Below are positions 42,756-62,343 of a DNA stretch of 62,407 nucleotides, piece after piece. The number at the start of each line of letters is the position of its first letter. Within the stretch, counting starts at the first letter, position 1. Location: positions 1-62,407 of the forward strand of contig REEA01000125.1 of assembly GCA_007695305.1 (NCBI GenBank), given 5' to 3'. This DNA comes from Bacteroidia bacterium (lineage in GTDB: Bacteria; Bacteroidota; Bacteroidia; Bacteroidales; UBA7960). Position numbers and translations under genes: made by a program. The notes below the pieces were generated by a model. The model ran no database searches, was not told the DNA's origin, and saw only the letters and a list, made by a program, of their open reading frames with translations.

Positions 42756-43970
42756 CTATTCATAATCCGGATACAGCAAGTACTTTGCCCTAATTTTTTT
42801 AAATGCATCCAGGTCTTTCTGCCACGAGTTCCTGATATCTTCGGCTGTATACCCCACCTTGATCTGATAGCGCAATAGGTTGTTGCCTGCACGTATCTCG
42901 AACCCCCTGTTAAAAAAATCTTCCTTTACCGGGAAGTGTGCATATGCCTCAAGGATGTATTCCAGGTTGATCTGGTTTTTTTGTCTCAATTCATCCAGTG
43001 GCAGGTCGCGTAAATCACGGCCAAAACAATTGTTTCCGAGCTGTGGAGGGTTTGGAGAGGCTGATACACTTTTGGGGGTAAATGGAAATGGGAATTGATC
43101 TTCCGGCAGGTCAGGGTGGCCAAATACCTGGAAAGGGTGCGCTGTACCTCTGCCAATACTGATATCGGTACCTTCAAACAAGCAAAGGGAAGGATAGAGA
43201 TAAACAGCATGCATATTGGGGAGGTTTGGTGATGGCGGCACAGGCAAATCATAACGGCTTGTGTGGTCATATCCTGCAACGGTGATCACTGTGAGGTCGC
43301 ATTGTTCGTCATATATGAGCCATGCTTCGCCGCAAACCATTCGGGCATATTCACCGATGGTCATACCATATACAATGGGAACCGGATGAAGACCGATGAA
43401 GGATACATAATCCGGGTCAAGCACCGGCCCGTCAACATAGTGCCGGTTGGGGTTTGGCCGATCCAGCACTATCACAGGGATGCCCTTGCGGGAAGCTTCC
43501 TCCAGGATAAATGTCATGGTTGAGATATACGTATAGAATCTTGCGCCCACGTCCTGGATATCAAAGAGTATGATATCCACATCATCCAGTTGCTCTTTCG
43601 TTGGCCTGCGATTACGGCCATAGAGACTGATTACAGGGATGCCCGTTTCGGTATCAACATAGCTTTCAACCAATTCACCATCGGCTGCTTCGCCACGAAA
43701 ACCGTGTTCCGGACTGAACACCTTCACAACCTTAATGCCGGATGAAAGGAGGGTATCCACAAGGTGGCGGTCAGCAACCATTGAAGTATGATTTCCTGCG
43801 ACAGCAACACGTTTCTCTTCCAGCAGATGCATATAGGCATCTTTTTGCCATGCGCCCGGAATGATTTGCCCGCTTTGCCGTATCGGATCATTGAAGCCAT
43901 AAAGATGTTGAACGCCTGAAGTAAGCAAAAACACAAGGCTTATTGTACACAGAAAATTAACTGTCCTCAT
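42756..43970 (-). CDS. NamZ-like exo-N-acetylmuramidase (DUF1343)
   Basis: This 404-aa exported protein starts from ATG 43970 with a signal peptide (NFLCTISLVFLLTSGVQHLYG); the frame opens at 44003. The DUF1343 core has VFSPEHGFRGEAADGE, SLYGRNRRPTKEQLDDV and ILFDIQDVGARFYTYISTM, with the C-terminal FQVFGHPDLPEDQFPF region. Family members studied in Bacillus and Tannerella release terminal N-acetylmuramic acid from muropeptides. It would act in the periplasm in cell-wall recycling or scavenging. MurNAc uptake or MurQ genes are not in the window. Confidence 0.85.
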   Translation of the reverse strand: MRTVNFLCTISLVFLLTSGVQHLYGFNDPIRQSGQIIPGAWQKDAYMHLLEEKRVAVAGNHTSMVADRHLVDTLLSSGIKVVKVFSPEHGFRGEAADGELVESYVDTETGIPVISLYGRNRRPTKEQLDDVDIILFDIQDVGARFYTYISTMTFILEEASRKGIPVIVLDRPNPNRHYVDGPVLDPDYVSFIGLHPVPIVYGMTIGEYARMVCGEAWLIYDEQCDLTVITVAGYDHTSRYDLPVPPSPNLPNMHAVYLYPSLCLFEGTDISIGRGTAHPFQVFGHPDLPEDQFPFPFTPKSVSASPNPPQLGNNCFGRDLRDLPLDELRQKNQINLEYILEAYAHFPVKEDFFNRGFEIRAGNNLLRYQIKVGYTAEDIRNSWQKDLDAFKKIRAKYLLYPDYE

Positions 43971-44012
43971 GGATGTATATTTTGTGAAAGGTGTAAATCT
44001 CAAAGGTGATAT

Positions 44013-47155: not shown

Positions 47156-49981
47156 ATGAGAAAAATTGCCTTACACATTACCGTATCATTCATTACCGCA
47201 TTATTACTGGCAGGCCTTCACGTGCAAGCAGCAGAACGTGACAATGATGTGGTGGAGATTGACAACATTCTGGAGCTTCAGCAACAGGAAGCCGACGATT
47301 CAACCGTTTACGAGCTCACCAACGAGGTGGTACTCATTTACCAGCAGTCGTTCAGGAATAAAAAGTGGATCCAGGATGAAACAGCCGGGATTCAGATAGA
47401 TGATCCTGGCGGGGTTATTACAACAATTTATGCACTGGGTGACGGTATCACCGGGCTAAAAGGCACATTAGTGGTACATAATAACAATTTTCAATTCAAA
47501 CCCGTTGAAGACCCGGGCACCCCAACCTCATCGGGAAACGAAATGACTTACGTGGAAAGAACCATTGATGAACTAAGCGTTGCCGATGCCGGTCGCCTGG
47601 TAAAAATTTATGATCTGGACTTTGATGAGGACTATCATGGGGATCCTTTTAGCACGGGTACAAACTATACCGTGAGTGATCCTTCAGGGGTAGGAACTTT
47701 CAGGACGGAGTTCTGGGATGCAGACTACATCGGGGGTATGATTCCGACGGAAGCCGTTGATGTGATTGCTATTGTGCATATGTTCCATGAGAACGTTCAG
47801 TTCACAGCCCGGTCGCTGGCAGATATGGGAATCACCGACATGCACACCATTGCTGCCTTGCGCAACCAGGAGCCCGACGGTGAAACCGTTTATACATTGG
47901 TCAATGAGGTGGTACTCACCTACCAGGAAAGCTGGCGCAACAGCAAATATATCGAAGATGGAACCGCCGGTATATTGATTGACGATTTGCCGGGTACAAT
48001 TACTACCGGGTATGAGATCTATGACGGGATAACCGGCATACAGGGAACGCTCAGCATTTTTGGAAACATGTGGCAGTTTATTCCTGTTGAAGACCCGGGT
48101 GCAGCCACTTCGAGTAACAATGTGATTGAACCGCCTGTGATCAGCATGGAAGAGTTTGTTGACAATTTCATGACCTACCAGGCACGTTTGGTAACCATCG
48201 AAAATGTGTACTTTGCTGATGCAGAAGGAAATTTTGCCAACGGTCAGATTTATGAGTTTACGGATGGAGATACTTATGCGGAGTTCCGTACAACCTTTTT
48301 CAATGTTGATTATATCGGGGATCCAATCCCAACTGTGGAACTCAACCTGACAGGATTACCAAATTCCAGGGCAGACGGGGACTTTCTGACGGCGCGAAAC
48401 TGGGGTGACATTGAAACGCTCACCTATTATTCTGTGACATTTGAGATCATGGATGAAGATGAGAATCTTCTTGAGAGCGCCACACTGGTATTTCGCGGTG
48501 ACACCCTTTATTCGGCCCCCTATTTCTTTGAAGAAGTGCCTGTGGGCACCCATTCCTATAAGGCATACCAGGAAGGATATCACACATCCCAGGGGCAGTT
48601 GAGTGTTTCTGACGGTGATTTGACTTACCAGCTGATCCTGGTTGAAATTGATCCGAATATGGTGACGGAGTTTCCCTGGCACGAGGGTTTTGATGAAGAT
48701 TTTCCGCCGGTTGGCTGGAATCATTATGTGCTGGGTGATGCCGGCGGCTGGGCGCAGGATAATGGCTGGGCTTTCCATGAAGCTACCGGTCAGGGACAGG
48801 AAGCCGACAGCTGGCTAATAACACCGCAGATACAAATACCCGAAGATGAAAGCCTGCTGCTTACATTTTGGGAGAAGAACCAGTTTATGTCTGAATATGA
48901 CTACAGTGCCTTAATGATATCAACGGGCAGCGGAAATCCTGCACACGGTCATTTTGTCCAGGTTTATGAATCGGCTGACAACATAGGTATAACCAACCCG
49001 AAAGAAACATTGATCAACCTGTCTGATTATGCCGGTGAGGTGATATACCTGGCATTTGTATACCAGGGCACATTTGCACATCGTTGGTGGGTCGGAGATT
49101 TCCTGGTTGATGCCGCTCCTGAAGCCATTGAGGTACCGAATATTGCAGCCCTGAAGAACCAGGAAATGGGTGACCTTGTATATCGCATCACAGGAGAGGT
49201 GATTATAACGCATCTGCAGAGAGCTTACCGAAACCAGTTTTACCTACAGGATGAAACAGGAGCCATTCTGATCGACGACAGTCCGGGCATTATTGAAACA
49301 GAATATGACCTGTATGATGGCATTACCAATTTGACAGGCAATTTTGGTCAATTCCAGGATATGCTTCAGTTGTTGCCAACGGAAGATCCCGGAGCAGCAT
49401 CCTCACAAAACAATGAAATTGAACCCATGGAGGTTAGCCTTGTTGAGCTCACCACAGACCTGCAAGGTATGCTTGTTATAGTAAGAAATGTACATTTCTA
49501 TGAAGACAATCCGGAAACCTTTACGCATAATCAGTCATATGAAATATATGACGATAGCGGCGACGGACTTATCAGAACTCCCAATGCTGAAGGAGCGCTG
49601 GATTATTTCGGTGAGCCGGTGCCCGAAGAGTCGAAAGATATTATCGGAGTGCTGCATCAGCGTTTTGAAGTAACCCGCTTGCTGCCCCGGATGCTTGCCG
49701 ACTTTATGGATCCTCAGCCGAACCAGGTTATTTCGCCCGAAGCGGATCATATCCGCATTTTCCCGAATCCTGCTGATTATCATTTAACTGTTGAAACAAG
49801 CGAATGGCAATTCTCAGGCATTCGGATCATCAATCTGAGCGGGCAGGCGGTGTACAACCAAGCTGTTGATACATCAAGCCGGGTTGAACTGAATGTTGGC
49901 CATCTGCCGGCAGGTATGTATATCATTCAATTGATTTCTGAAAGGGAAACCAGGAACCTGAAGCTGCAGATCAGCAGGTAG
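47156..49981 (+). CDS. T9SS-exported multidomain protein with OB-like repeats
   Basis: This 941-aa protein starts at ATG 47156 (signal peptide ALHITVSFITALLLAGLHVQA); ATG 47108 gives a 16-residue longer form without better signal. It has three related domains of about 190-200 residues (nt ~47230-47830, 47830-48430 and 49130-49710), each with the pattern VYxLxNEVVLxYQxxxRNxxxIxDxTAGIxIDD and a VEDPGxxxSSxNE tail, like the DUF5689 OB-type domain. Between repeats 2 and 3 are a PEGA-like strand domain (~48430-48655) and a choice-of-anchor-J domain (~48660-49125, FDEDFPPVGWNHYVLGDAGG, DSWLITPQI). The last ~75 residues are a type A T9SS sorting domain (IRIFPNPADYHLTVE, LPAGMYIIQLI). It is secreted or surface-anchored. 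Function unknown; the gene leads a three-gene unit. Confidence 0.85.
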   Translation: MRKIALHITVSFITALLLAGLHVQAAERDNDVVEIDNILELQQQEADDSTVYELTNEVVLIYQQSFRNKKWIQDETAGIQIDDPGGVITTIYALGDGITGLKGTLVVHNNNFQFKPVEDPGTPTSSGNEMTYVERTIDELSVADAGRLVKIYDLDFDEDYHGDPFSTGTNYTVSDPSGVGTFRTEFWDADYIGGMIPTEAVDVIAIVHMFHENVQFTARSLADMGITDMHTIAALRNQEPDGETVYTLVNEVVLTYQESWRNSKYIEDGTAGILIDDLPGTITTGYEIYDGITGIQGTLSIFGNMWQFIPVEDPGAATSSNNVIEPPVISMEEFVDNFMTYQARLVTIENVYFADAEGNFANGQIYEFTDGDTYAEFRTTFFNVDYIGDPIPTVELNLTGLPNSRADGDFLTARNWGDIETLTYYSVTFEIMDEDENLLESATLVFRGDTLYSAPYFFEEVPVGTHSYKAYQEGYHTSQGQLSVSDGDLTYQLILVEIDPNMVTEFPWHEGFDEDFPPVGWNHYVLGDAGGWAQDNGWAFHEATGQGQEADSWLITPQIQIPEDESLLLTFWEKNQFMSEYDYSALMISTGSGNPAHGHFVQVYESADNIGITNPKETLINLSDYAGEVIYLAFVYQGTFAHRWWVGDFLVDAAPEAIEVPNIAALKNQEMGDLVYRITGEVIITHLQRAYRNQFYLQDETGAILIDDSPGIIETEYDLYDGITNLTGNFGQFQDMLQLLPTEDPGAASSQNNEIEPMEVSLVELTTDLQGMLVIVRNVHFYEDNPETFTHNQSYEIYDDSGDGLIRTPNAEGALDYFGEPVPEESKDIIGVLHQRFEVTRLLPRMLADFMDPQPNQVISPEADHIRIFPNPADYHLTVETSEWQFSGIRIINLSGQAVYNQAVDTSSRVELNVGHLPAGMYIIQLISERETRNLKLQISR

Positions 49982-50023
49982 TAGTTTGCCAAATCGGATT
50001 TATGGACTTTAAATATCAATCCA

Positions 50024-52732
50024 ATGAAAATCAAAAAAATCATTTCCCTTTTCTTTCTGATGATTGCCTTGTTTTTGCTAACGGGGCATCAGGCATCAGC
50101 CTCAACAATCCGGGGTGTTGTTGCGGACGAGGATGGCAACAGGCTTCCGTCGGCGCTGGTTGAGCTGATCAACATGGATACGGGCCGAACATACGGTATT
50201 ACGACCAATGTTAACGGTGTTTTCGAGATACGTGTGGAAGCGGGGGTTTACTCCATGAATATTTCGTACCTGGGATACGTGGACATTTTGCAAACCATTG
50301 ATGCAACCACTGATACAGATCTGGGCACTTTGACCATGAAGGTCAGCACCATAGGTCTCCAGGAAGTGATGGTGGTTTCTTCTTACGCCCGTGACAGGCA
50401 AACACCGGTAGCCATATCAAACATTTCGGCTGAAGCCATTACGGAGCGTTTGGGAACCCAGGAGTTTCCACAGATACTGCAATCAACGCCCAGTGTTTAC
50501 GCCACCAGAGATGGCGGTGGTTTCGGTGATGGCCGGATCAACATGCGCGGTTTTGATTCAAACAATATTGGTGTTTTGATCAACGGTGTTCCTGTGAATG
50601 ACATGGAAAACGGCCGGGTTTACTGGTCTAACTGGGCCGGTTTATCGGATGTTACACAAACCATGCAGGTGCAACGCGGGCTGGGGGCTTCGCGGTTGGC
50701 GATCAGTTCCGTGGGCGGTACCATCAACATCATTACACAATCCACTGAGGTAAACCGGGGAGGTACAATATTATATGCAGTTGGACATGACGGCTACCGT
50801 CAGGAGTCTGTCAGTTTTTCAACGGGTCTGCTGGACAATGGATGGGCGGTAACAGCCCTTGGTGGCAGAAGAACCGGCGAGGGTTTTGTTGACGGGCTGG
50901 ATTTTGAGGGTTGGTCTTACTTTTTGAATGTATCCAAGATTGTAAATCGCAACCATACCCTCTCACTTACGGCATTTGGCGCACCGCAATGGCATAACCA
51001 GCGTTGGCCGCGTCAATTGATCCAGACCTATCGCGACCATCCTCTTGGTATTCGCTACAATCCCTCCATGGGTATCATGAACGGAGAAAGGTATTCAGCC
51101 TCTTACAATGAATATCACAAACCGCAGATATCTTTGAATCATTATTGGTCGGTATCACCCGTTACCACCATTTCAACGGCCGCTTATGTATCCATTTCTT
51201 CAGGCGGAGGCAGAAGGATCATCGGACCGCAGAGTGGCTGGCTGCAGCATGATAGAAATACAGGCTTACCCACAGAGCTAACAAAGCTGACTCCTGACGG
51301 GTGGCTTGATTTTGATGCCGTGATGCAGGAAAATGCACAGTCGCACAGAGGTTCTCTTGCTGTCATAGGCAGGGCTGTGAATGAACACGACTGGTATGGA
51401 CTCTTGTCCACTACCCAAACGGAATATGAGAACTACACTTTTACCGGTGGTGTCGACCTCAGGTACTACAGGGGTTATCATTACCAGGAGGTGACCAATC
51501 TGCTGGGCGGAAGTCACTATGAGGATTTCAATAATGTGAACAGGGATTTTTTCCGCCTGAGAGAAGGTGACAAAATCGGGTATCATGACCTGGGAGAGGT
51601 GGCATGGGCTGGTATTTTCGGGCAGGCTGAATACACCACCGATCAGTATTCCGCATTTCTATCAGCAACCTTTTCCAATACAAACTATCGCCGTACTGAC
51701 TATTTCCTTTATTATGATGATGATTCGCCAACCAGGCTCGCATACCAGGAAGAGGCTGACGGTTACAAGGATCAGGCAGAAGCTGCCCTGGCACAGGGTG
51801 ACGAAGAGGCCTACCAGGAATTCATGAATCAATACAACAGTATCATGGGCAGGCGCGCAATGACGGATCAGCGCAGCGACTGGATTGATTTCTGGGCATG
51901 GAGCTTAAAGGGTGGTGCCAACTACAACATTTCCGAATACCATAATGTGTTCGGCAATATCGGATATTTCACAAGGGCACCCTTTTTCCGCTGGGCGTTT
52001 GTAGGTTTCACCAATGTAGAGAATATTGGTGTACGTCACGAAAGTGTATTCTCCACCGAAGTCGGATACGGATTACGCACACCCCTGATTGCTGCCAACC
52101 TGATTCTTTATCGTACCGAATGGCTCGACAGGGCCCTTGTCAGGAACCTGGGACAGGGGGTTATTGCCAACATGGCAGGATTGAACGCTCTCCATCAAGG
52201 TATTGAAATAGACTTTACCATAAGGCCAAACAGAAAGCTGGAGATCAGGGGTATGTTTTCTTATGGGGACTGGAACTGGCAGGATGATCTGATCGCTGAA
52301 ATTTATGACGATCAACAGGTGTTTATCGACAGCATTGAAGTGTATGCAGGAGGTTTGAAAGTTGGAAATTCGGCCCAGACCACAGCTGCCATCGGTGTAA
52401 GTTACGAGGTACTTGAGAATCTGCGGATCGGTTTCGATGCGAACCATTTTGACCGTTTGTTTGCCAATTTTAATGTGGAAGATCGCGGCGATCTGGCTTT
52501 CAGAGGTATCAACTCCTGGCAAATGCCCTCATACCAGCTGGTGGATTTGAACATGCGCTACCGCTTCAGGATGGCCGGGTTGAATGCGACAATCATTGTT
52601 AACGTGAATAACCTATTCAATACCGAAGCCATCAGGGATGCAACCGACGGACGTTCTTTCAACTATGATTCAGCCCTTGTATATTATGGTTGGGGACGTT
52701 CTTGGACCACATCATTGCGCATCAGGTTCTGA
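50024..52732 (+). CDS. TonB-dependent receptor of the 47-54 kb locus
   Basis: This 902-aa outer-membrane receptor has a signal peptide (ISLFFLMIALFLLTGHQASA), a carboxypeptidase-regulatory-like domain (about 27-110), a plug (about 125-235, with FPQILQSTPSVYATRDGGGF, NMRGFDSNNIGVLINGVPV and GASRLAISSVGGTINIIT), and a long barrel ending in an aromatic residue (SWTTSLRIRF). It begins 42 bp after the T9SS protein gene and is followed 37 bp later by the lipoprotein. It is not a classical SusC: no SusD homologue follows. The ligand is unknown and may be the product released or captured by the secreted partner. Confidence 0.9.
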   Translation: MKIKKIISLFFLMIALFLLTGHQASASTIRGVVADEDGNRLPSALVELINMDTGRTYGITTNVNGVFEIRVEAGVYSMNISYLGYVDILQTIDATTDTDLGTLTMKVSTIGLQEVMVVSSYARDRQTPVAISNISAEAITERLGTQEFPQILQSTPSVYATRDGGGFGDGRINMRGFDSNNIGVLINGVPVNDMENGRVYWSNWAGLSDVTQTMQVQRGLGASRLAISSVGGTINIITQSTEVNRGGTILYAVGHDGYRQESVSFSTGLLDNGWAVTALGGRRTGEGFVDGLDFEGWSYFLNVSKIVNRNHTLSLTAFGAPQWHNQRWPRQLIQTYRDHPLGIRYNPSMGIMNGERYSASYNEYHKPQISLNHYWSVSPVTTISTAAYVSISSGGGRRIIGPQSGWLQHDRNTGLPTELTKLTPDGWLDFDAVMQENAQSHRGSLAVIGRAVNEHDWYGLLSTTQTEYENYTFTGGVDLRYYRGYHYQEVTNLLGGSHYEDFNNVNRDFFRLREGDKIGYHDLGEVAWAGIFGQAEYTTDQYSAFLSATFSNTNYRRTDYFLYYDDDSPTRLAYQEEADGYKDQAEAALAQGDEEAYQEFMNQYNSIMGRRAMTDQRSDWIDFWAWSLKGGANYNISEYHNVFGNIGYFTRAPFFRWAFVGFTNVENIGVRHESVFSTEVGYGLRTPLIAANLILYRTEWLDRALVRNLGQGVIANMAGLNALHQGIEIDFTIRPNRKLEIRGMFSYGDWNWQDDLIAEIYDDQQVFIDSIEVYAGGLKVGNSAQTTAAIGVSYEVLENLRIGFDANHFDRLFANFNVEDRGDLAFRGINSWQMPSYQLVDLNMRYRFRMAGLNATIIVNVNNLFNTEAIRDATDGRSFNYDSALVYYGWGRSWTTSLRIRF

Positions 52733-52769
52733 GATGCAGGATTTTATGAATCAATTAATCTTCAAGAAA

Positions 52770-54107
52770 ATGAAAAAAAGAAAACATATTTTCACCGCGA
52801 TGTTGCTGACTGGACTGATTTCTCTGCAGGCCTGTGATCCCAACAAGGATCTCTATGAAAAAATGGATGCAGCCAGGGAGCCTTACAGCGAGAATGTTGA
52901 ATATACACTGATGGATGCTGATTATAACAGGTTTGGTGGTTTTATTGCCCAGTATAAGGCGTTTAGCGATTCATTTCCTGCCATGGATTATGTACCGGTA
53001 ATACTGGCCAGCCGTTATGTAACACTCGACCTGAACAGTTCTGCCATGGTAACCTTCAATCATTTCCTGCTTCATCCCACCTGGTGGGATGCGGGGTTTG
53101 GTTATGAGTTCCAGCCAAAAGACTACGCTTTCCTGGGTCTGGACAATACATTCACCCCTGATAATCCTGCATGGCAACTTATTCCCCTATGGCTGAACCG
53201 TGAGTACCCCGGTGCGGAAGAAGGTGACGAAGTGCATATCATTTACAATTTTACGGAAGCCGGCGAAACCTATCTGAACCAGGATAACTATGGCTATGAC
53301 GGTGAGCAATGGGAGTTACTGAAAACCAAAGAAAACCTGCCTTATATCGGTTATGAGCTCACACCTGAAGACTATGAATGGTTTGGCGGCAGCGTTGCCC
53401 AGTTTAACAATTTCAGTGAAAATAATCCGCCTGAAAACTACCTGCCGGTGTTTCTAAAGAATAAGTTTCCCAATATCCCCATTGGCGGAGAAAAAGTGTT
53501 GAAATACAGATTCTTTAATGGCAGCCAGGTGGTGAACAATATTGATAAATTTGTTTTTGACGGGGTGATTTGGGAGTCTCTGCCCTATATTGTGGAAAAA
53601 ACGGAACAATATATTTTTGGTGAAGAAGGCTGGGCTTTCGATCCAACTGTGTTTTTAACCATGGACAGGGATGATTACATGTACCTTGTATCCATAGACC
53701 CGGTTGGGCAGCAGGAGTTTGCATATGATGATTTTGCCTATTACTATGGTGCCAGTGCCTTTTACAGGAACTTTGACATACGGATCATCGGACGCAGGTT
53801 GGATAAATTGTCAACCGGTGAATATGCCGATCCCGAGCTGGGAGAAATATATGAGAACGAAGGTCCGGAGGCTGTCATGGAGGAGATGATGCGCCGAATC
53901 AAGCATGAGGGAATCATTTACCTGCTCCAGCATAAATACCCTGATGCAGCTCCGCAAATCGGAGGCATCGACGTACACTTCTATGTGGGTTTTCAAACTT
54001 TTGCCGACAACTGGGTGCGCCGTTTCCCCGAGGCTGAATACATCTGTACAGCAGCAGGTGATCCTCCCCAGTTCGAAATGGTTAATTTTATTGAGAATAC
54101 AGAATAG
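52770..54107 (+). CDS. Repeat-containing surface lipoprotein
   Basis: This 445-aa protein starts at ATG 52770 with a lipoprotein signal MKKRKHIFTAMLLTGLISLQAC (lipidated Cys22). A longer frame open from 52638 overlaps the receptor gene and is rejected. The mature chain has repeated modules beginning near residues 46, 110, 193 and 293 with the pattern YxLxxxDYxxFGGxxAQFxxF, then YxPVxLxxxFP and a KYRFF-like strand. The last part has YYYGASAFYRNFDIRI. I do not recognise a named function. Position after the TonB receptor suggests a surface-exposed partner. A strong terminator follows 27 bp past the stop. Confidence 0.75.
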   Translation: MKKRKHIFTAMLLTGLISLQACDPNKDLYEKMDAAREPYSENVEYTLMDADYNRFGGFIAQYKAFSDSFPAMDYVPVILASRYVTLDLNSSAMVTFNHFLLHPTWWDAGFGYEFQPKDYAFLGLDNTFTPDNPAWQLIPLWLNREYPGAEEGDEVHIIYNFTEAGETYLNQDNYGYDGEQWELLKTKENLPYIGYELTPEDYEWFGGSVAQFNNFSENNPPENYLPVFLKNKFPNIPIGGEKVLKYRFFNGSQVVNNIDKFVFDGVIWESLPYIVEKTEQYIFGEEGWAFDPTVFLTMDRDDYMYLVSIDPVGQQEFAYDDFAYYYGASAFYRNFDIRIIGRRLDKLSTGEYADPELGEIYENEGPEAVMEEMMRRIKHEGIIYLLQHKYPDAAPQIGGIDVHFYVGFQTFADNWVRRFPEAEYICTAAGDPPQFEMVNFIENTE

Positions 54108-54134
54108 CAGGCAGAAAAACCATTGGATTATCCG

Positions 54135-54173
54135 ACGGAGGATGGTTGTGTACCAATCATCCTCCGTTTTTTT
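54135..54173 (+). terminator. Terminator of the receptor/lipoprotein unit
   Basis: A perfect 10-bp stem (ACGGAGGATG at 54135-54144, CATCCTCCGT at 54158-54167, loop of 13) is followed by seven Ts. It closes the three-gene unit 47156-54107. Confidence 0.9.
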
Positions 54174-56462: not shown

Positions 56463-57464
56463 ATGTTAAAATCAACGCAATTTTTTCCACTGATAATCAA
56501 GGTGATAGTGTTTTCGTATGCTTTGCTCCTTGCAGGCACAAGCGGCTTTTCATTTGGTTTTTCCGCGCACCGGATAATAAACCGTATGGCAGTGTTCACT
56601 TTGCCACCGGAAATGATCGGATTGTACAAGCACCACATAGAATTTTTGTCGGAACGTTCGGTAGACCCTGACAAGCGGGCACATGCGGTAGATGGTGAAG
56701 CACCAAGGCACTATATCGACATAGATCATTTTGGTGATTCACCTTTTGATATCATGCCCAGAAAATGGCAGGATGCCGTGGAGATGTTTACCGAAGACAC
56801 CCTGATGAGGTACGGTGTTCTGCCGTGGCATATTGATGTGATGATGCAGCGGCTTACCAGGGCATTCATACAAAATGACATGGACCGGATACTGCTGCTT
56901 TCCGCACACCTTGGGCACTATATTGCCGATGCCTGCACGCCTTTGCATAACACAAAATTTTATAACGGTCGCACACCTGCCCAAAGAGGTATTCATGCCT
57001 TTTGGGAAACACGGCTGGTTGAATTGTATGCCAACAGCTACCAATTCTTCACCGGGAGGGCACAATACATCCCTGATCCTTTGGAAAGGGCATGGGAGCT
57101 GGTTGAGATCAGCCATTTGAAAGTGGATACGATATATATGGTTTTTGACAGTTTAATGATCCATTTTCCGGCCGACAGGATGTATGCCCATGAAATGCGC
57201 GGCCAGGCAACCAACCGTGTTTACTCACGATCATTTTCTGCTGCATTTCATGACGGACTCAATGGTATGGTTGAGAGACAAATGCAACTGGCCGTGAAAT
57301 CCATTGGCGATTACTGGTTTACCGCCTGGGTAAATGCCGGTCAACCTGATCTTACATTGATGGAGCAACAAAAACTAAGCAACCGTTTTTTGAGATGGCT
57401 GCGAAAAGAGGAGCGGAAATGGGCAGGTGAAAAGCAAATCTCCGAAAGATCATATTCTGAATAA
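56463..57464 (+). CDS. Zinc-dependent phospholipase C-like protein
   Basis: This 333-aa protein has an N-terminal signal segment (VIVFSYALLLAGTSGFSFG) and an all-helical S1/P1 nuclease-phospholipase C-type fold. Zinc-ligand motifs visible are FGFSAHRIINRMAV, PRHYIDIDHFG, SAHLGHYIADACTPLHN and GIHAFWETRLVEL, giving a set of His and Asp residues in the family order. The enzyme would act in the periplasm on phosphodiesters. In Bacteroidota such proteins are usually uncharacterised. The gene is preceded by a 119-bp gap without a clear promoter. Confidence 0.75.
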   Translation: MLKSTQFFPLIIKVIVFSYALLLAGTSGFSFGFSAHRIINRMAVFTLPPEMIGLYKHHIEFLSERSVDPDKRAHAVDGEAPRHYIDIDHFGDSPFDIMPRKWQDAVEMFTEDTLMRYGVLPWHIDVMMQRLTRAFIQNDMDRILLLSAHLGHYIADACTPLHNTKFYNGRTPAQRGIHAFWETRLVELYANSYQFFTGRAQYIPDPLERAWELVEISHLKVDTIYMVFDSLMIHFPADRMYAHEMRGQATNRVYSRSFSAAFHDGLNGMVERQMQLAVKSIGDYWFTAWVNAGQPDLTLMEQQKLSNRFLRWLRKEERKWAGEKQISERSYSE

Positions 57465-57505: not shown

Positions 57506-57602
57506 AAATAATCTGCCACATCCATTTATAGGTAAATTTTCCTTAAATTCGTCGGTGAAAACAAGTGTACTCATTTTTCATTCCTGATTATTGAGCTTAG
57601 AA

Positions 57603-59546
57603 ATGGGATATATCAAATTTGACAAAACACAATTGATCAACCTGGAGTATTCTCTTGACAAAGAAATGGTTAGATCAAACAGATCGGGTGCTTTCTCGTG
57701 CACCACTATTGTCGGTTGCAATACACGCAAGTACCATGGATTGCTAATCAGCAAACAGCCGCAGCTTGATGGTGAACACCATGTTTTGTTGTCAAAGGTT
57801 GACGAAAGCGTTATTCAGCGGGATGCAATTTTTAATTTAGGGGTAAACAAGTACCCGGGAAAGTTTCATCCAAAGGGTCATAAATATATCCGGGATTTTA
57901 CCGCGGATATTATCCCGGTGGTGACTTACCGAGTTGGCGGTGTTGTGTTGACGAAAGAAACAATGTTTGTTACCGAACAGGAAATGGTGATGATCCGATA
58001 CACCCTTCGGGAGGCGCACTCCCCTACCCGATTGCGATTGCAACCATTTCTGGCATTTCGGAACATTCACTCGCTGAGTAAAAGAAACATTTACAATGAT
58101 ACCAAATATACAGCCATAACCAACGGTATAAAAGTCAGGATGTATGAAGGATATCCCTATCTGCATCTGCAGTTGTCTAAAAAAGGCGGAGAATATGTTC
58201 ATGCGCCCGATTGGTATAATGATCTGGAATATGTGCAGGAAGCCGCTCGTGGTTATGAAGCCCATGAGGACTTATTTGTTCCCGGTTTTTTTGAGGTTCC
58301 CATCAAGAAAGGTGAAAGCATCATATTATCTGCTTCAACCGCTGAAGTGCAACCCGGTTCTCTAACCCGGCTCTTTAACAGCGAACTGAAAAAAAGAATT
58401 CCAAGGGATTCTTTCCGGAACAGTTTGCTCAATACAGCCACTCAATTCTTTGCACTGAAAGATAATAAAGCGTCCATTACCGCCGGCTTTCCGTGGATGG
58501 GGTTTTCCGGTCGATACACATTTATTTCACTTCCGGGCCTGTCATTGGTCGAGTCAGAAAAAGGGATATGCAAGAAAGTGATCGACAATATGGTCAACCG
58601 TATGAATGGTCCGTTTTTTCCTGAATCCATTATCCAAAACCGGGAAATATACCATTCGGCAGATACCTCACTGTGGTTTTTCCATGCATTGCAACACTGT
58701 ATGGGTAATATAAATCAAGAGACCCTCTGGAAGCATTACGGAGGAGTTATGGAGAAAATTCTCAACGGATATGCAGAAGGCTATGATCCGGCCATCCATA
58801 TGAATGATGAAGGGCTGTTATGGATTGATTCTTCCAAACCCGCACTCACATGGATGAATGCAGAGTCGAACGGTCGGTGCCATTCGGCACGATATGGTTA
58901 TGTGGTAGAAGTGAACGCATTATGGTATAATGCCATAAAGTTTGCCGTTGAGCTTGCTTCTGCGGCAAACCAGGAAGATTTCGTCGACAAATGGTCGCCT
59001 GTTGAGCAAAAACTAAAACAAAGTTTTCCGGAAGTATTCTGGAATGAACAATTGGGTTACCTGACTGATTTCGTTACCGAAAATGGGCAGGACACACGCG
59101 TAAGGCCAAACCAGGTGATCTCTGTCGGTCTCAGGTATACCCCCATGCCCAAAAACAAGATCAAAAAAATACTGGACGTTGCTGTACAGCAACTGCTTAC
59201 GCCGAGGGGATTAAGAAGTTTATCACCGCGTGATCCGGGTTATAAGGGACGATATTTTGGTGATACCTTTTCAAGGGATACGGCCTATCACCAGGGAACC
59301 GTATGGGTGTGGCCACTGGGATTTTTTACAAATGCCTGGTTTAAGGTATATGGCCGGCAGGGTGCAGATTTCATCAAGAAATTATACACTGGTTTTGAAG
59401 AAACCATCACAGAAAATGGTATTGGAACGGTTTCAGAGATTTTCGAAGGAGATCCGCCACATAAAGCATGCGGAGCTCTCTCTTTTGCCGCAAGCCTTGG
59501 GGAATTGCTGAGAATTGACAGGATGTTATCAGGAGGTAAGAAATGA
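57603..59546 (+). CDS. Glycogen debranching enzyme-related protein (GH133-like)
   Basis: This 647-aa protein starts at ATG 57603; the frame also offers TTG 57591. The N-terminal beta domain has the GDE_N pattern (SGAFSCTTIVGCNTRKYHGLL). The C-terminal (alpha/alpha)6 domain has GFPWMGFSGRYTFISLPGL, ALTWMNAESNGRCHSARYGY, VEVNALWYNAIKFA and GTVWVWPLGFF. Family members with known activity hydrolyse alpha-1,6 branch stubs of glycogen. Two motif residues differ from the usual forms as I remember them: Tyr305 where WGRDT has Asp, and Asn419 where TWMD has Asp. It is the first of three glycogen genes. Confidence 0.85.
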   Translation: MGYIKFDKTQLINLEYSLDKEMVRSNRSGAFSCTTIVGCNTRKYHGLLISKQPQLDGEHHVLLSKVDESVIQRDAIFNLGVNKYPGKFHPKGHKYIRDFTADIIPVVTYRVGGVVLTKETMFVTEQEMVMIRYTLREAHSPTRLRLQPFLAFRNIHSLSKRNIYNDTKYTAITNGIKVRMYEGYPYLHLQLSKKGGEYVHAPDWYNDLEYVQEAARGYEAHEDLFVPGFFEVPIKKGESIILSASTAEVQPGSLTRLFNSELKKRIPRDSFRNSLLNTATQFFALKDNKASITAGFPWMGFSGRYTFISLPGLSLVESEKGICKKVIDNMVNRMNGPFFPESIIQNREIYHSADTSLWFFHALQHCMGNINQETLWKHYGGVMEKILNGYAEGYDPAIHMNDEGLLWIDSSKPALTWMNAESNGRCHSARYGYVVEVNALWYNAIKFAVELASAANQEDFVDKWSPVEQKLKQSFPEVFWNEQLGYLTDFVTENGQDTRVRPNQVISVGLRYTPMPKNKIKKILDVAVQQLLTPRGLRSLSPRDPGYKGRYFGDTFSRDTAYHQGTVWVWPLGFFTNAWFKVYGRQGADFIKKLYTGFEETITENGIGTVSEIFEGDPPHKACGALSFAASLGELLRIDRMLSGGKK

Positions 59547-59724
59547 TCTTTTCTACTTGATCAGTGGTCTACTGAAGCCAGGCAAACCCTTATGGAATTT
59601 GAACAGAAAGAAAAACATGATGAATACCGGTGAAACACCTGCCGCAATGGCAGCATCCGTCAGATCAACGGTAGCGGAAAGTTTGCCCAGGGTGTTATTC
59701 AATAACAATTATTCAACAGATTAA

Positions 59725-61026
59725 ATGAAGCAAAAAAAAATGAAAGTACTGATGTTTGGTTGGGAGTTTCCACCGCACATTTCCGGTGGATTGGGTACTG
59801 CCTGCTACGGACTCACCAAGGCTCTGATGAAAGCAGATGTGGACATTTTGTTCGTTGTTCCCAAAATGTATGGTGATGAAGAGCCGGGAAAAATCCGTCT
59901 TATCAGTGCTTCCGATGTATCTGTGGATGTGCGGGATGAGGTGTATAAATCCCACGAAAACAAAATTTCTTACATGGAAATTGACTCCACCTTGCTCCCT
60001 TATGCAACCGAAGATGAGTATTATCATTTGGTGGAACAGCTTGAAAGCGGGATCAGCCTTGAACAACTGAACCTGCATACCCAAAAGTTCAAGTTTTCGG
60101 GTGGATACGGAAAAAACCTGATGGAAGAAGTGCGGCGGTATGCCATTGTAGCCTCTGCCATTGCTCGCGACAATGATTTTGACATCATCCATGCCCACGA
60201 TTGGCTTGCCTATTTTGCCGGTATAGAAGCCCGGAAAGTGAGTGGTAAACCGCTGGTTGTACATATGCATGCCACTGAATTTGACCGTTCAGGAGAAAAC
60301 ATTAACCAATCGGTGTTTTCCATTGAACGAACCGGCATGGATGCTGCAGATATGGTTATCGCTGTCAGCCATCTTACCCGAAATGTCGTGATCAACCGTT
60401 ATGGCATTCCTGCCCATAAAGTAATCACAGTTCACAATGGCGTTGAACCCCCGGCAGACACATCTGCCATAAGTATCAAGAAGCATGTGGATGAAAAAAT
60501 TGTGACCTTCCTGGGCAGAATCACCTATCAAAAGGGCCCTGAATATTTTATTGAAGCAGCCCACAAGGTATTGCAGCGTGATCCGAACGTAAGATTTGTC
60601 ATGGCAGGCAGCGGTGATATGCTTCCCGGAATGATCCGAAGGGTTGCCAAACTAGGCATGGGTACTCGTTTTCACTTTACCGGTTTTCTAAAAGGAGACG
60701 ATGTTGACCGGATGTTTGGGCTCAGTGATGTTTATGTAATGCCCTCGGTTTCAGAACCATTTGGGATTTCGCCCCTGGAAGCCATGCGTTCAAATGTACC
60801 TGTCATCATTTCCAAACAGTCAGGCGTTGCCGAGGTATTGAACCATGCATTAAAAGTCGATTATTGGGATGTAGATGCCATGGCTGATGCCATATACGGC
60901 GTTCTGCACTATTCGTCTTTGAATAAAATGTTTAGAAAATTCGGAAAAGCAGAGGTTGAGAACATCAAATGGGACCAGGCTGGTTTGAAGGTGAAAGAGA
61001 TCTACAAACAACTGATACACGCCTGA
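59725..61026 (+). CDS. Glycogen synthase-like glycosyltransferase (GT-B fold)
   Basis: This 433-aa retaining glycosyltransferase has the GT4/GT5-type N-terminal glycine loop (MFGWEFPPHISGGLGTACYGL), IIHAHDWLAYFAGIEA, and the donor-site region EPFGISPLEAMRSNVPVI with the E-x7-E pattern. It likely builds alpha-1,4-glucan with a nucleotide-glucose donor. It sits between the debranching-related gene and a GH57 amylase, a three-gene order also known in Bacteroides. Its ATG is directly preceded by a stop codon, TAA at 59722-59724, of a short upstream frame. Confidence 0.9.
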   Translation: MKQKKMKVLMFGWEFPPHISGGLGTACYGLTKALMKADVDILFVVPKMYGDEEPGKIRLISASDVSVDVRDEVYKSHENKISYMEIDSTLLPYATEDEYYHLVEQLESGISLEQLNLHTQKFKFSGGYGKNLMEEVRRYAIVASAIARDNDFDIIHAHDWLAYFAGIEARKVSGKPLVVHMHATEFDRSGENINQSVFSIERTGMDAADMVIAVSHLTRNVVINRYGIPAHKVITVHNGVEPPADTSAISIKKHVDEKIVTFLGRITYQKGPEYFIEAAHKVLQRDPNVRFVMAGSGDMLPGMIRRVAKLGMGTRFHFTGFLKGDDVDRMFGLSDVYVMPSVSEPFGISPLEAMRSNVPVIISKQSGVAEVLNHALKVDYWDVDAMADAIYGVLHYSSLNKMFRKFGKAEVENIKWDQAGLKVKEIYKQLIHA

Positions 61027-61107
61027 ATCCCATTATTAGGATAATAACTTGATTTGTTAAAAGCGAAATGCACTTAATTGCAATAAGATACCATTAAAAA
61101 ATTTGTC

Positions 61108-62343
61108 ATGAAGTCAATTTGTTTCTATTTTCAGGTCCATCAGCCTTACCGGCTTTCATCGTTTCGTTTTTTCGACATTGGAGCGCATGATCATTATTTT
61201 GATGATTATGCCAACCGCTATATCATGCAGCAAGTGGCTGAAAAATGTTATCTGCCCGCCAATGAAGTGCTATTGGGTCTGATAAAAAAACATGGAAAAA
61301 ACTTCAAAGTATCATTCAGCATTTCAGGGGTAGCTCTGGACCAGTTTGAGAAATACGCACCAAAAGTGCTTAAGAGCTTCCAGAAGCTTGCCCAAACAGG
61401 CTCGGTTGAATTTCTGGCTGAAACATGGGCACATTCACTCTCTGCCCTCAAAAGCAAACGGGAGTTTGAAGAACAGGTAAAAATGCATACGCTGAAAATT
61501 CAGGAGCTGTTCGGCCAAAAACCTGTTACGTTCAGAAATACCGAGCTGGTTTACTCCAATGATATCGGCGAAATGGTTTACGACATGGGCTTTGATACCA
61601 TGATCACTGAAGGTGCAAAACACGTACTCGGATGGAAAAGCCCCAACTTGCTCTACTGCAGTGCATCCAATCCCAAGTTAAAGCTTTTGCTGAAGAATTT
61701 CCAGCTTTCAGACGATATCGCCTTCCGTTTTTCGGACAGAAGATGGAGCGAATGGCCCCTCACCGCGGAAAAATTCCTTTCCTGGATAGACAATATTGAC
61801 GGTAAAGATGAAGTGATCAATCTTTTCATGGACTATGAAACCTTCGGAGAACACCAATGGGCTGAAACCGGAATATTCGACTTTTTAAAGTCATTCCCTG
61901 ACCTTGCTATTGAAAAAGGTGGTTACAGTTTTAAAACACCCGCCGAACTCTCCAAAGAACTGCAGCCCGTTGCCCAACTGAATGTGCCATATCCCATCTC
62001 ATGGGCCGATGAAGAGCGGGACCTTACTGCCTGGCTGGGTAACGAATTGCAGGATGAAGCATTCAATACATTGTATAGCATTGAAAGCAAAGTTCGCAAG
62101 ATAAAAGACGAAAAGCTCACAACACAATGGAGATATCTGCAAACCAGTGACCATTTCTATTACATGTGTACCAAGTGGTTTTCTGACGGAGACGTGCACA
62201 AATACTTCAATCCATACAGCTCACCCTATGATGCTTTTATCAACTATATGAACGTGGTCTCCGACCTGATGATGCGTGTTGAAAAAATGATGGCTTCCCG
62301 GCCAAAGCGGACAAGGGTAAAGAAAAAGAAACAGGAAGCCTGA
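61108..62343 (+). CDS. GH57-family glycoside hydrolase (alpha-amylase type)
   Basis: This 411-aa enzyme acts on alpha-1,4 glucans by hydrolysis or transfer. GH57 conserved regions are present: HQPYR (region 1), GSVEFLAETWAHS (region 2), FRNTELVYSNDIG with the nucleophile Glu146 (region 3) and LFMDYETFGEHQW with the acid/base Asp242 (region 4). Region 5 is less clear. No signal peptide, so it acts on internal glycogen with its two neighbours. The C-terminus is strongly basic (RPKRTRVKKKKQEA). It starts 81 bp after the glycosyltransferase. The last 64 bases of the window hold nothing recognisable. Confidence 0.92.
   Translation: MKSICFYFQVHQPYRLSSFRFFDIGAHDHYFDDYANRYIMQQVAEKCYLPANEVLLGLIKKHGKNFKVSFSISGVALDQFEKYAPKVLKSFQKLAQTGSVEFLAETWAHSLSALKSKREFEEQVKMHTLKIQELFGQKPVTFRNTELVYSNDIGEMVYDMGFDTMITEGAKHVLGWKSPNLLYCSASNPKLKLLLKNFQLSDDIAFRFSDRRWSEWPLTAEKFLSWIDNIDGKDEVINLFMDYETFGEHQWAETGIFDFLKSFPDLAIEKGGYSFKTPAELSKELQPVAQLNVPYPISWADEERDLTAWLGNELQDEAFNTLYSIESKVRKIKDEKLTTQWRYLQTSDHFYYMCTKWFSDGDVHKYFNPYSSPYDAFINYMNVVSDLMMRVEKMMASRPKRTRVKKKKQEA

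Follow-up and report, generated by a model that had tools for sequence, protein, structure and literature searches.

The window analysed here is a 62,407 nt stretch of DNA from a sediment bacterium, within which three genes follow one another on the forward strand, separated by gaps of 42 and 37 bp (Table 1). An earlier sequence-only reading had described this tight run with the same coordinates and strands, and had placed a strong terminator behind it, as was found: a 15-pair stem is followed by a T run, with a folding z-score of -5.5 relative to shuffled sequences. Three terminator-like sites were detected in the region, fewer than expected from the mean of 7.0 in shuffles, and of their stems (15, 11 and 5 pairs) that behind the trio is both the longest and the richest in G-C pairs. 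The genes 3-8 kb further downstream (57591-62343) resemble, by eye, a glycogen debranching enzyme, a glycosyltransferase and a GH57 protein.

Table 1. Features of the three-gene locus, in window coordinates
Feature	Position	Strand	Basis or E-value
P0001 (protein 1), secreted T9SS protein, 941 aa: three DUF5689 domains, choice-of-anchor J, type A sorting domain	47156..49981	+	family models
DUF5689 domain 1 of P0001	47354..47824	+	E 3.8e-9
DUF5689 domain 2 of P0001, weakest alone	48107..48412	+	E 2.8e-5
Choice-of-anchor J domain of P0001, residues 538-645	48767..49090	+	E 4.7e-11
DUF5689 domain 3 of P0001	49181..49702	+	
T9SS type A C-terminal sorting domain of P0001, residues 868-936	49757..49963	+	E 2.1e-10
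P0002 (protein 2), TonB-dependent receptor, 902 aa: CarboxypepD_reg, plug, barrel; non-SusC, type B	50024..52732	+	family models, receptor tree
P0003 (protein 3), lipoprotein, 445 aa, reference member of the P3 family; Cys22 lipobox	52770..54107	+	
Three repeated modules of ~75 aa each in P0003	52887..53579	+	
Intrinsic terminator 3' of the trio	54134..54168	+	stem and T run, folding z-score

As judged from sequence, P0001 has the make-up that had been proposed for it, that of a T9SS-exported protein with a choice-of-anchor J domain, and the cognate export route appears to be available, as the same genome encodes sprA (SprA_N, E 2.7e-179). DUF5689 is matched three times, with a whole-protein E of 1.8e-26. 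For the OB-like repeats that had been proposed, a single hint was seen, a sub-threshold Pfam match to an OB-fold (E 0.0015, residues 477-540) in a relative's protein, partly overlapping a DUF5689-like stretch at residues 495-634. Both P0001 and P0003 are acidic, with net charges per 100 aa of about -11 to -12 and about -9 respectively, and are hence unfavourable candidates for direct nucleic-acid binding, although an equal acidity is seen in two homologues that are nucleases, L073_0 and L224_0.

The description of P0002 as a non-Sus TonB receptor also holds. It matches CarboxypepD_reg (E 1.7e-13) and the TonB plug (E 1.2e-14), no SusC/RagA model is listed for it in Pfam or NCBIfam at E<=1, and its scores against siderophore and B12 receptor models fall far below their cut-offs. 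A TonB-linked outer-membrane receptor of determined structure, 9gbc, aligns with it over residues 21-267 only. In the receptor tree, for which no root is claimed, the outgroup rows lying on very long branches beside clade A, P0002 belongs to a P3-bearing subclade of 20 rows (support 96), outside the 14 rows of clade A (support 100). We refer to its kind of receptor as type B, a label that claims no single clade, with six type-B rows placed outside the three main B subclades. Receptors linked to nucleases, which are ~30-37% identical to P0002, and those linked to P3 occupy separate subclades, hence their substrates may differ. The window's genome has both clade-A and type-B receptors; with type B, clade A and others counted jointly, 187 of 296 genomes have such TBDTs.

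P0003 was correctly anticipated to be a lipoprotein of repeated modules. Its three related modules (residues about 40-110, 108-190 and 192-270) were aligned locally by hhalign with probabilities of 93, 97.5 and 99%, and the C-terminal region has no clear relation to them. Neither Pfam nor NCBIfam yields a match to the protein at E<=1, nor does the PDB by sequence at E<=10. Likewise, P0005 and the profiles A1 and A4 retrieved no convincing match from PDB sequences. The absence of any SusD match speaks against the possibility, raised previously, of a diverged SusD; with neither a SusC/RagA nor a SusD match in the pair among family models at E<=1, membership of SusC or SusD was rejected. The arrangement of TonB receptor and surface lipoprotein in one operon is nevertheless shared with SusCD polysaccharide utilisation loci and PusCD phosphate utilisation systems (PMC8115612), but the trio differs from these in having no SusC signature, no SusD model match and no glycosidase among the three genes.

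Across genomes, a type-B receptor is followed directly by P3 at all 60 P3 loci, as it is in the window. A protein-1 homologue is present at 11 of the 12 close-relative loci of sufficient length; the full trio is confined to close relatives, beyond which the receptor-P3 pair persists without protein 1. The lack of joint conservation that would have counted against the sequence-only reading was not seen.

The survey of gene neighbourhoods which that reading had suggested uncovered a link, at the level of sequence, between type-B receptors and nucleases. Among 70 type-B loci outside the window's own family, Endonuclease I or PLD lay within six ORFs at 35, and an LTD protein was present at 34. In Pfam terms, the same-strand gene 3' of the receptor was Endonuclease_1 at 18 and PLDc_2 at six of the 59 scanned, while the gene 5' was LTD at 34 of the 45 scanned. 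Glyco_hydro_3 and GDE_C were each seen once, 3' of type-B receptors. Clade A served as a control: Endonuclease I or PLD occurred at 1/14 clade-A loci and EEP nuclease at 1/70 type-B loci, both exceptions coming from one genome in which A and B adjoin. Endonuclease I is itself scarce, being found at 50 places in 40 hand-picked genomes, 22 of them with a type-B receptor no more than 10 kb away. Nuclease loci of this kind in Bacteroidia encode an LTD T9SS protein, the receptor, and a T9SS Endonuclease I or PLD. They resemble the window in their homologous receptor and, in several cases, in a DUF5689 T9SS protein, but have a linked nuclease and no P3 lipoprotein, whereas the window has P3 and no linked nuclease. 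The earlier statement that DUF5689 proteins accompany TonB receptors and secreted nucleases in other Bacteroidota also proved right in the surveyed loci, and single proteins combine DUF5689, a nuclease and a T9SS tail at L115, L128, L202 and L141, the tail in L128 falling just under the cut-off.

The nuclease link is weaker in the P3-bearing subclade, which is the window's own, than across type B. A nuclease, nucleotide phosphodiesterase or 5'-nucleotidase is present at at least 15 of 51 P3 loci, and none was found at 36; Endonuclease I or PLD lay within six ORFs at 3/40 follow-up P3 loci, compared with 4/11 of the first ones. Where such enzymes occur, they can be immediate neighbours. Receptor, P3 and Endonuclease I are consecutive at L114, L185, L245 and L260; at L265 receptor, P3 and a DNA/RNA non-specific endonuclease are separated by 19 and 6 bp; and L125 has the order Endonuclease I, 5'-nucleotidase, receptor, P3. 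In five loci a type I phosphodiesterase/nucleotide pyrophosphatase lies directly 3' of P3. Phosphodiest enzymes also act on phosphodiesters other than nucleic acids. Within the 40 follow-up loci, which are not all independent, nuclease, phosphodiesterase or nucleotidase matches account for 10/116 ORFs up to two genes from the pair against 1/203 farther away (Fisher one-sided p 2.4e-4), a comparison whose phosphodiesterase model was seeded with the five neighbours it counts, and which without them stands at 5/116 against 1/203.

The proposal that the trio captures nucleic acid is therefore supported in part: nucleases lie near type-B receptors and the trio is kept in close relatives, but the window has no linked nuclease or nucleotidase. 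The Endonuclease I model found no match in the 17 close-relative loci as fetched (L009-L025). Beyond the end of L016, the same-genus genome G005 encodes an Endonuclease I-DUF5689 protein 8.9 kb after the lipoprotein gene, on the same strand and contig. As this nuclease follows the gene block that ends the window, an overlap was sought between the window and contig C119, which carries the sole Endonuclease I found in the window's own genome, likewise a DUF5689-Endonuclease I protein. No overlap exists and the upstream flank of C119 differs, hence no linkage is claimed. By sequence, this nuclease has the DUF5689 domain in common with P0001, its DUF5689 part sharing 51% identity over 207 aa with the region around the third DUF5689 domain.

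A further parallel comes from the duck bacterium Riemerella anatipestifer, in which RA0C_RS04915, located in the outer membrane and bearing a carboxypeptidase regulatory-like domain, and RA0C_RS04920, a DUF5689/choice-of-anchor-J protein, are both essential for DNA uptake (PMC8459023). Like the window, this operon joins a CarboxypepD_reg receptor-like protein to a DUF5689/choice-of-anchor-J surface protein, and RA0C_RS04915 fits clade A by description, rather than by comparison of Riemerella sequences. Clade-A receptors are 20-26% identical to P0002, have a DUF5689 lipoprotein in place of P3, and stand beside an EEP nuclease at 11/14 loci; 13/13 of these M949_1556-type partners match NF052645 at E<=0.001, whereas P0003 does not. 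M949_1556 is an NCBIfam model whose name comes from a locus tag of Riemerella. The window's pair is distantly related to what would appear to be this essential DNA-uptake protein.

Given receptor relatives near enzymes that cut DNA or nucleotides, and this distant kinship, P0002 is probably a nucleic-acid scavenging port. On balance, we lean towards the trio serving to acquire extracellular nucleic acid at the outer membrane, whether DNA and/or RNA fragments or nucleotides, with nutrition rather than transformation the probable use. P0001, secreted via the T9SS, would collect or hold the polymer at the surface. Cutting would fall to nucleases whose genes are direct neighbours in some relatives and lie elsewhere, on C119, in the window's organism. 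The P3 lipoprotein may sit on the receptor as a substrate-binding partner, like SusD on SusC; the receptor would draw fragments into the periplasm, and nucleotidases there would release phosphate and nucleosides.

It is unlikely, though the most credible of the alternatives, that the trio is instead a port for organic phosphorus, importing phosphodiesters other than nucleic acids, such as lipid head groups or nucleotide sugars, with nucleases merely fellow members of a phosphate-starvation response. The phosphodiesterases that follow P3 would suit such a role, as would the response of F. johnsoniae to phosphate depletion: the available text of PMC8115612 describes induction of TBDTs with CarboxypepD_reg-type domains, of lipoproteins, two of them downstream of TBDTs, and of two Endonuclease I-LTD nucleases classed there as orphans, although these Fjoh loci are set beside the window's pair by description, not by sequence. 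That same text suggests PusCD1 scavenges phosphodiesters including nucleic acids. However, the recurrence of true endonucleases beside the receptor or pair is unexplained by other phosphodiesters.

A little less plausible still is an unrelated ligand (a glycan, peptide, metal complex or cobalamin) combined with a surface adhesin, the nuclease links being a property of the other subclade. Most P3 pairs indeed have no linked enzyme, and other genes recur around them: a ribonucleotide reductase large chain, presumably of class II and hence a user of B12, is found two to four genes 3' of the receptor at 7/51 P3 loci, and kdtA immediately 5' at 10/51, in both cases probably through synteny. Of 28 genes in the vicinity of P3, five match Sulfatase, and these are most likely the five phosphodiesterases, which belong to the same superfamily; the lone Glyco_hydro_3 and GDE_C genes could also be cited. 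Yet the receptor resembles neither SusC nor siderophore or B12 receptors by the models above, P0003 is no SusD by the same measure, no glycosidase or peptidase is among the best 25 of 61 families near P3, and P3 is repeatedly followed by nucleases across several families.

Less probable again is natural transformation, with type B a second DNA port feeding ComEC in the manner of the clade-A-like Riemerella pair. Beyond that pair's essential role, tonB mutants are less transformable, one of them not via iron, according to the available text of PMC8383284. The window's genome also encodes ComEC, DprA and a protein with two HHH_3 domains, but ComEC and DprA are widespread, occurring in 10/14 and 11/14 control genomes. 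A DUF1343/NamZ gene, from a family that likewise includes an essential gene of Riemerella, lies 3 kb before the trio, although this may be plain synteny. Moreover, description, neighbours and the M949_1556 model all assign the Riemerella pair to clade A, not type B, and feeding is the better fit for a receptor type that neighbours degradative nucleases and nucleotidases. It is highly improbable that an Oar-like receptor here aids the exit or surface assembly of a secreted protein rather than the entry of a nutrient, in the way that the TBDT Oar of Myxococcus is required for PopC secretion in the available text of PMC6434023, since P0001 has its own T9SS signal and the pair is kept without protein 1 outside close relatives.

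Nucleic-acid acquisition by the trio may have a wider counterpart. We suggest, more tentatively, that Bacteroidota possess a widespread family of TonB-driven ports for nucleic acids distinct from SusCD, in which clade A with DUF5689 lipoproteins would serve transformation, and type B with P3 or T9SS nucleases would serve feeding; the window would then be type B, and its lipoprotein a new type of partner. To our knowledge, Bacteroidota are mostly without transformation pili, and the portions of the literature examined hold no description of DNA pieces crossing their outer membrane. Were such a family real, it would supply this missing step of DNA import. The conserved receptor-P3 pair offers a concrete set of candidate genes for feeding on nucleic acids and for the recycling of phosphorus, and the unnamed TonB receptors of many genomes gain a candidate substrate. 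Ca. Izemoplasmatales have, as far as we know, no outer membrane. Their DNA-degradation loci resemble those described here in clustering extracellular nucleases with an LTD-nuclease protein for DNA feeding, but differ in employing ABC transporters, the word 'TonB' being absent from the main text of PMC8289736 as available. The same text names Bacteroidota among the important degraders of extracellular DNA in sediment.

The three genes, whose coordinates and spacing were confirmed, encode a T9SS protein, a TonB receptor and a repeat lipoprotein as in the sequence-only reading, which had proposed a possible surface capture and uptake system closed by a strong terminator, here found as a 15-pair stem 3' of the trio. 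Pfam and NCBIfam models identified three DUF5689 domains, a choice-of-anchor J domain and a T9SS tail in P0001, and CarboxypepD_reg and plug domains in the TonB receptor P0002, for which no SusC model was listed, in keeping with its non-Sus assignment. The repeat lipoprotein P0003 has a lipobox and three mutually related modules (hhalign 93-99%), and matched neither a Pfam or NCBIfam family nor a PDB sequence.

Coordinates of the three genes, their neighbours and selected loci elsewhere (L, fetched locus)
Feature	Location	Strand	Remark
P0001, T9SS protein	window 47156-49981	+	
P0002, TonB receptor	window 50024-52732	+	
P0003, lipoprotein	window 52770-54107	+	
DUF1343/NamZ exo-muramidase gene	window 42756-44003	-	3 kb ahead of trio
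Protein with signal-like N-terminus	window 56463-57464	+	weak, below-cut-off likeness to zinc-dependent phospholipase C
Clade-A locus, own genome	L071 5142-11964 (contig C117)		EEP nuclease divergent
Endonuclease I + DUF5689 protein, 1191 aa, open-ended	L073 2-3577	-	contig C119 ends within gene
Ribonucleotide reductase large chain	L061 11123-13687		six further P3 loci alike
DUF5017 protein (DUF5018 below cut-off)	L060 1-795	-	directly after P3

The receptor and lipoprotein are consistently found together. A genome search found P0003 in single copy in its own genome; it recurs in 29 of the 59 genomes taken as relatives, and its profile matches 73 of the 393 genomes of the order, own genome counted in both. 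The receptor lies directly 5' of the lipoprotein gene in all 17 close-relative loci (P0003 54-93% identical), which come from metagenome-assembled Bacteroidota, many of one sediment series. P0001 homologues occur in 11 of the 12 of these loci of judgeable length, the remaining five of the 17 being truncated; they are upstream on the same strand in four and downstream and convergent in seven, with none in L024. Outside the organism's own family, P3, the family represented by P0003, adjoins the receptor in 11/11 first and 40/40 follow-up loci. Together with nine own-family loci, P3 is the next gene after a type-B receptor (that of P0002) in 60/60 loci, with a median gap of 21 bp, and on the same strand in 59. 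The lone exception is most likely L261, where receptors flank P3 on both sides and the wrong one was measured. The strict lipobox pattern is present in 56 of the 60 P3 proteins, the other four being lipoprotein-like by eye; the L060 lipoprotein carries a long insert.

Of 296 Bacteroidia genomes searched with P0002, 187 had a hit at E<=1e-30, a count that takes in clade-A and other TonB receptors; the best match was 1e-55 or better in 103, clade A reaching 1e-51 among the matches listed. Scoring the 93 receptors of the fetched loci against P0002 versus P0004, the own genome's next best receptor (contig C117), split them into 79 of type B and 14 of type A. A tree built by a quick method from 90 of these (three incomplete receptors omitted), the window's receptor and four outgroup rows recovered clade A with support 100. 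All 19 P3-linked B rows, window included, fall in one 20-row subclade (support 96), and the 30 remaining B rows with an Endonuclease I or PLD link all fall in a 36-row subclade (support 98); a 14-row B subclade (support 99) has neither link. Because six B rows stray outside these three subclades and the outgroup branches are very long, type B is a score class of unproven clade status, and the tree is read as unrooted.

Type-B loci, picked by receptor score and family spread regardless of neighbours, are frequently associated with nucleases. Within six ORFs of 70 such loci outside the own family were Endonuclease I (29) or PLD (6), hence one or the other in 35/70, as well as LTD proteins (34) and P3 (11). 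The following gene, where on the same strand, within 250 bp and at least 120 aa long (59/70 loci), matched Endonuclease_1 in 18 cases, PLDc_2 in six, DUF5689 in seven and the T9SS tail in 25, with single matches including Glyco_hydro_3 and GDE_C; the preceding gene carried LTD in 34 of the 45 passing the filter. DUF5689, nuclease and T9SS tail are fused in one protein in L115, L128 (its tail marginally below cut-off), L202 and L141. Endonuclease I is scarce: 36 of 40 genomes together have 50 occurrences, and 22 of these lie no more than 10 kb from a type-B receptor, in a hand-chosen, non-random sample of mostly genomes with fetched loci. The own genome, assembled to 94% completeness, yielded one Endonuclease I, in the C119 protein, whose DUF5689 domain is 51% identical over 207 aa to the third of P0001. 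The same-genus genome G005 has the homologue of this nuclease (65% identical) 8.9 kb 3' of its lipoprotein gene, in the same orientation.

Among P3 loci this association was weaker in the follow-up, with Endonuclease I in two and PLD in one of 40 new loci, against 4/11 for either in the first set (within six ORFs). Unsupervised clustering of the neighbours of 51 P3 loci gave kdtA (14 loci) and ribonucleotide reductase (seven) as the commonest families, both probably synteny; the reductase large chain is on the same strand, two to four genes 3' of the receptor. Remaining clusters each covered at most five loci. A type I phosphodiesterase immediately follows P3 in five, three sharing one family and so not independent, and 5'-nucleotidases occur in four. 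Pfam matches in 28 selected genes, 23 of them entered as same-strand and within 250 bp 3' of P3 (one, in L261, actually being the receptor), were Phosphodiest (5), Sulfatase (5, probably the same proteins), Endonuclease_1 (4), 5_nucleotid_C (2), Endonuclease_NS (1) and PLDc_2 (1). A nuclease, nucleotide phosphodiesterase or 5'-nucleotidase lies within six ORFs in at least 15 of the 51 P3 loci (L058, L114, L125, L185, L245, L251, L255, L260, L261, L262, L264, L265, L266, L268, L269), and in 36 no enzyme of the counted families was found in that range. In L265 the receptor gene is followed after 19 bp by P3, and P3 after 6 bp by a non-specific endonuclease gene; L125 carries Endonuclease I, 5'-nucleotidase, receptor and P3 on a single strand. 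A distance control on ORFs of at least 150 aa in the 40 follow-up loci matched the enzyme models in 10/116 lying at most two genes from the pair and in 1/203 farther away (Fisher one-sided p 2.4e-4), a partly circular comparison, as five of the ten were phosphodiesterases from which their model was built. L185 (genome G328) packs clade-A and type-B receptors, P3, Endonuclease I and two EEP-like nucleases into about 14 kb.

The type B-nuclease link, the DUF5689-nuclease fusions and the runs of receptor, P3 and nuclease point to nucleic acid as the putative substrate of the receptor-P3 system, at close to even chances given that linkage is weak in the subclade to which the window belongs and that the proteins are acidic. 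The main rival is a phosphate-scavenging port for other diesters: the accessible part of one study reports that phosphate depletion in F. johnsoniae induces TonB-dependent transporters, lipoproteins encoded downstream of them and nucleases combining Endonuclease I with LTD, and proposes a scavenging role for PusCD1 on phosphodiesters, among them nucleic acids (PMC8115612). Extracellular nucleases are common in Bacteroidota, according to the accessible parts of PMC8289736, whose main text lacks the word TonB, and PMC11495043; those of PMC8630151 and PMC12566107 contain nothing on uptake. Riemerella aside, the accessible text of the open-licence matches listed describes no non-SusCD TonB receptor-lipoprotein pair for nucleic-acid uptake.

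In Riemerella anatipestifer, markerless deletions of RA0C_RS04915/RS04920 abolish transformation, and the description in the accessible text agrees with a clade-A receptor and partner (PMC8459023); domain match and the NCBIfam model's name would place them in clade A. TonB deletions lower transformation there, one acting through iron uptake and one not, as far as the accessible text states (PMC8383284). At clade-A loci an EEP nuclease adjoins 11/14 and a DUF5689 protein 13/14; the 13 partners scanned carry DUF5689 (12), the NCBIfam M949_1556 lipoprotein model (13) and choice-of-anchor J (9). The own genome's clade-A locus contains an EEP nuclease alongside two lipoproteins with DUF5689, one of which also has DUF6359, and its receptor seemingly lacks CarboxypepD_reg by eye. 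Because that genome thus has clade A too, feeding is the more likely role of type B, rather than transformation. SprA, ComEC, DprA and HHH_3 proteins are also encoded. Natural transformation in Riemerella requires its DUF1343 gene RA0C_RS09020; the nearness of the window's DUF1343/NamZ gene to the trio may be plain synteny. The position of the phospholipase C-like gene after the trio is kept in several same-genus loci.
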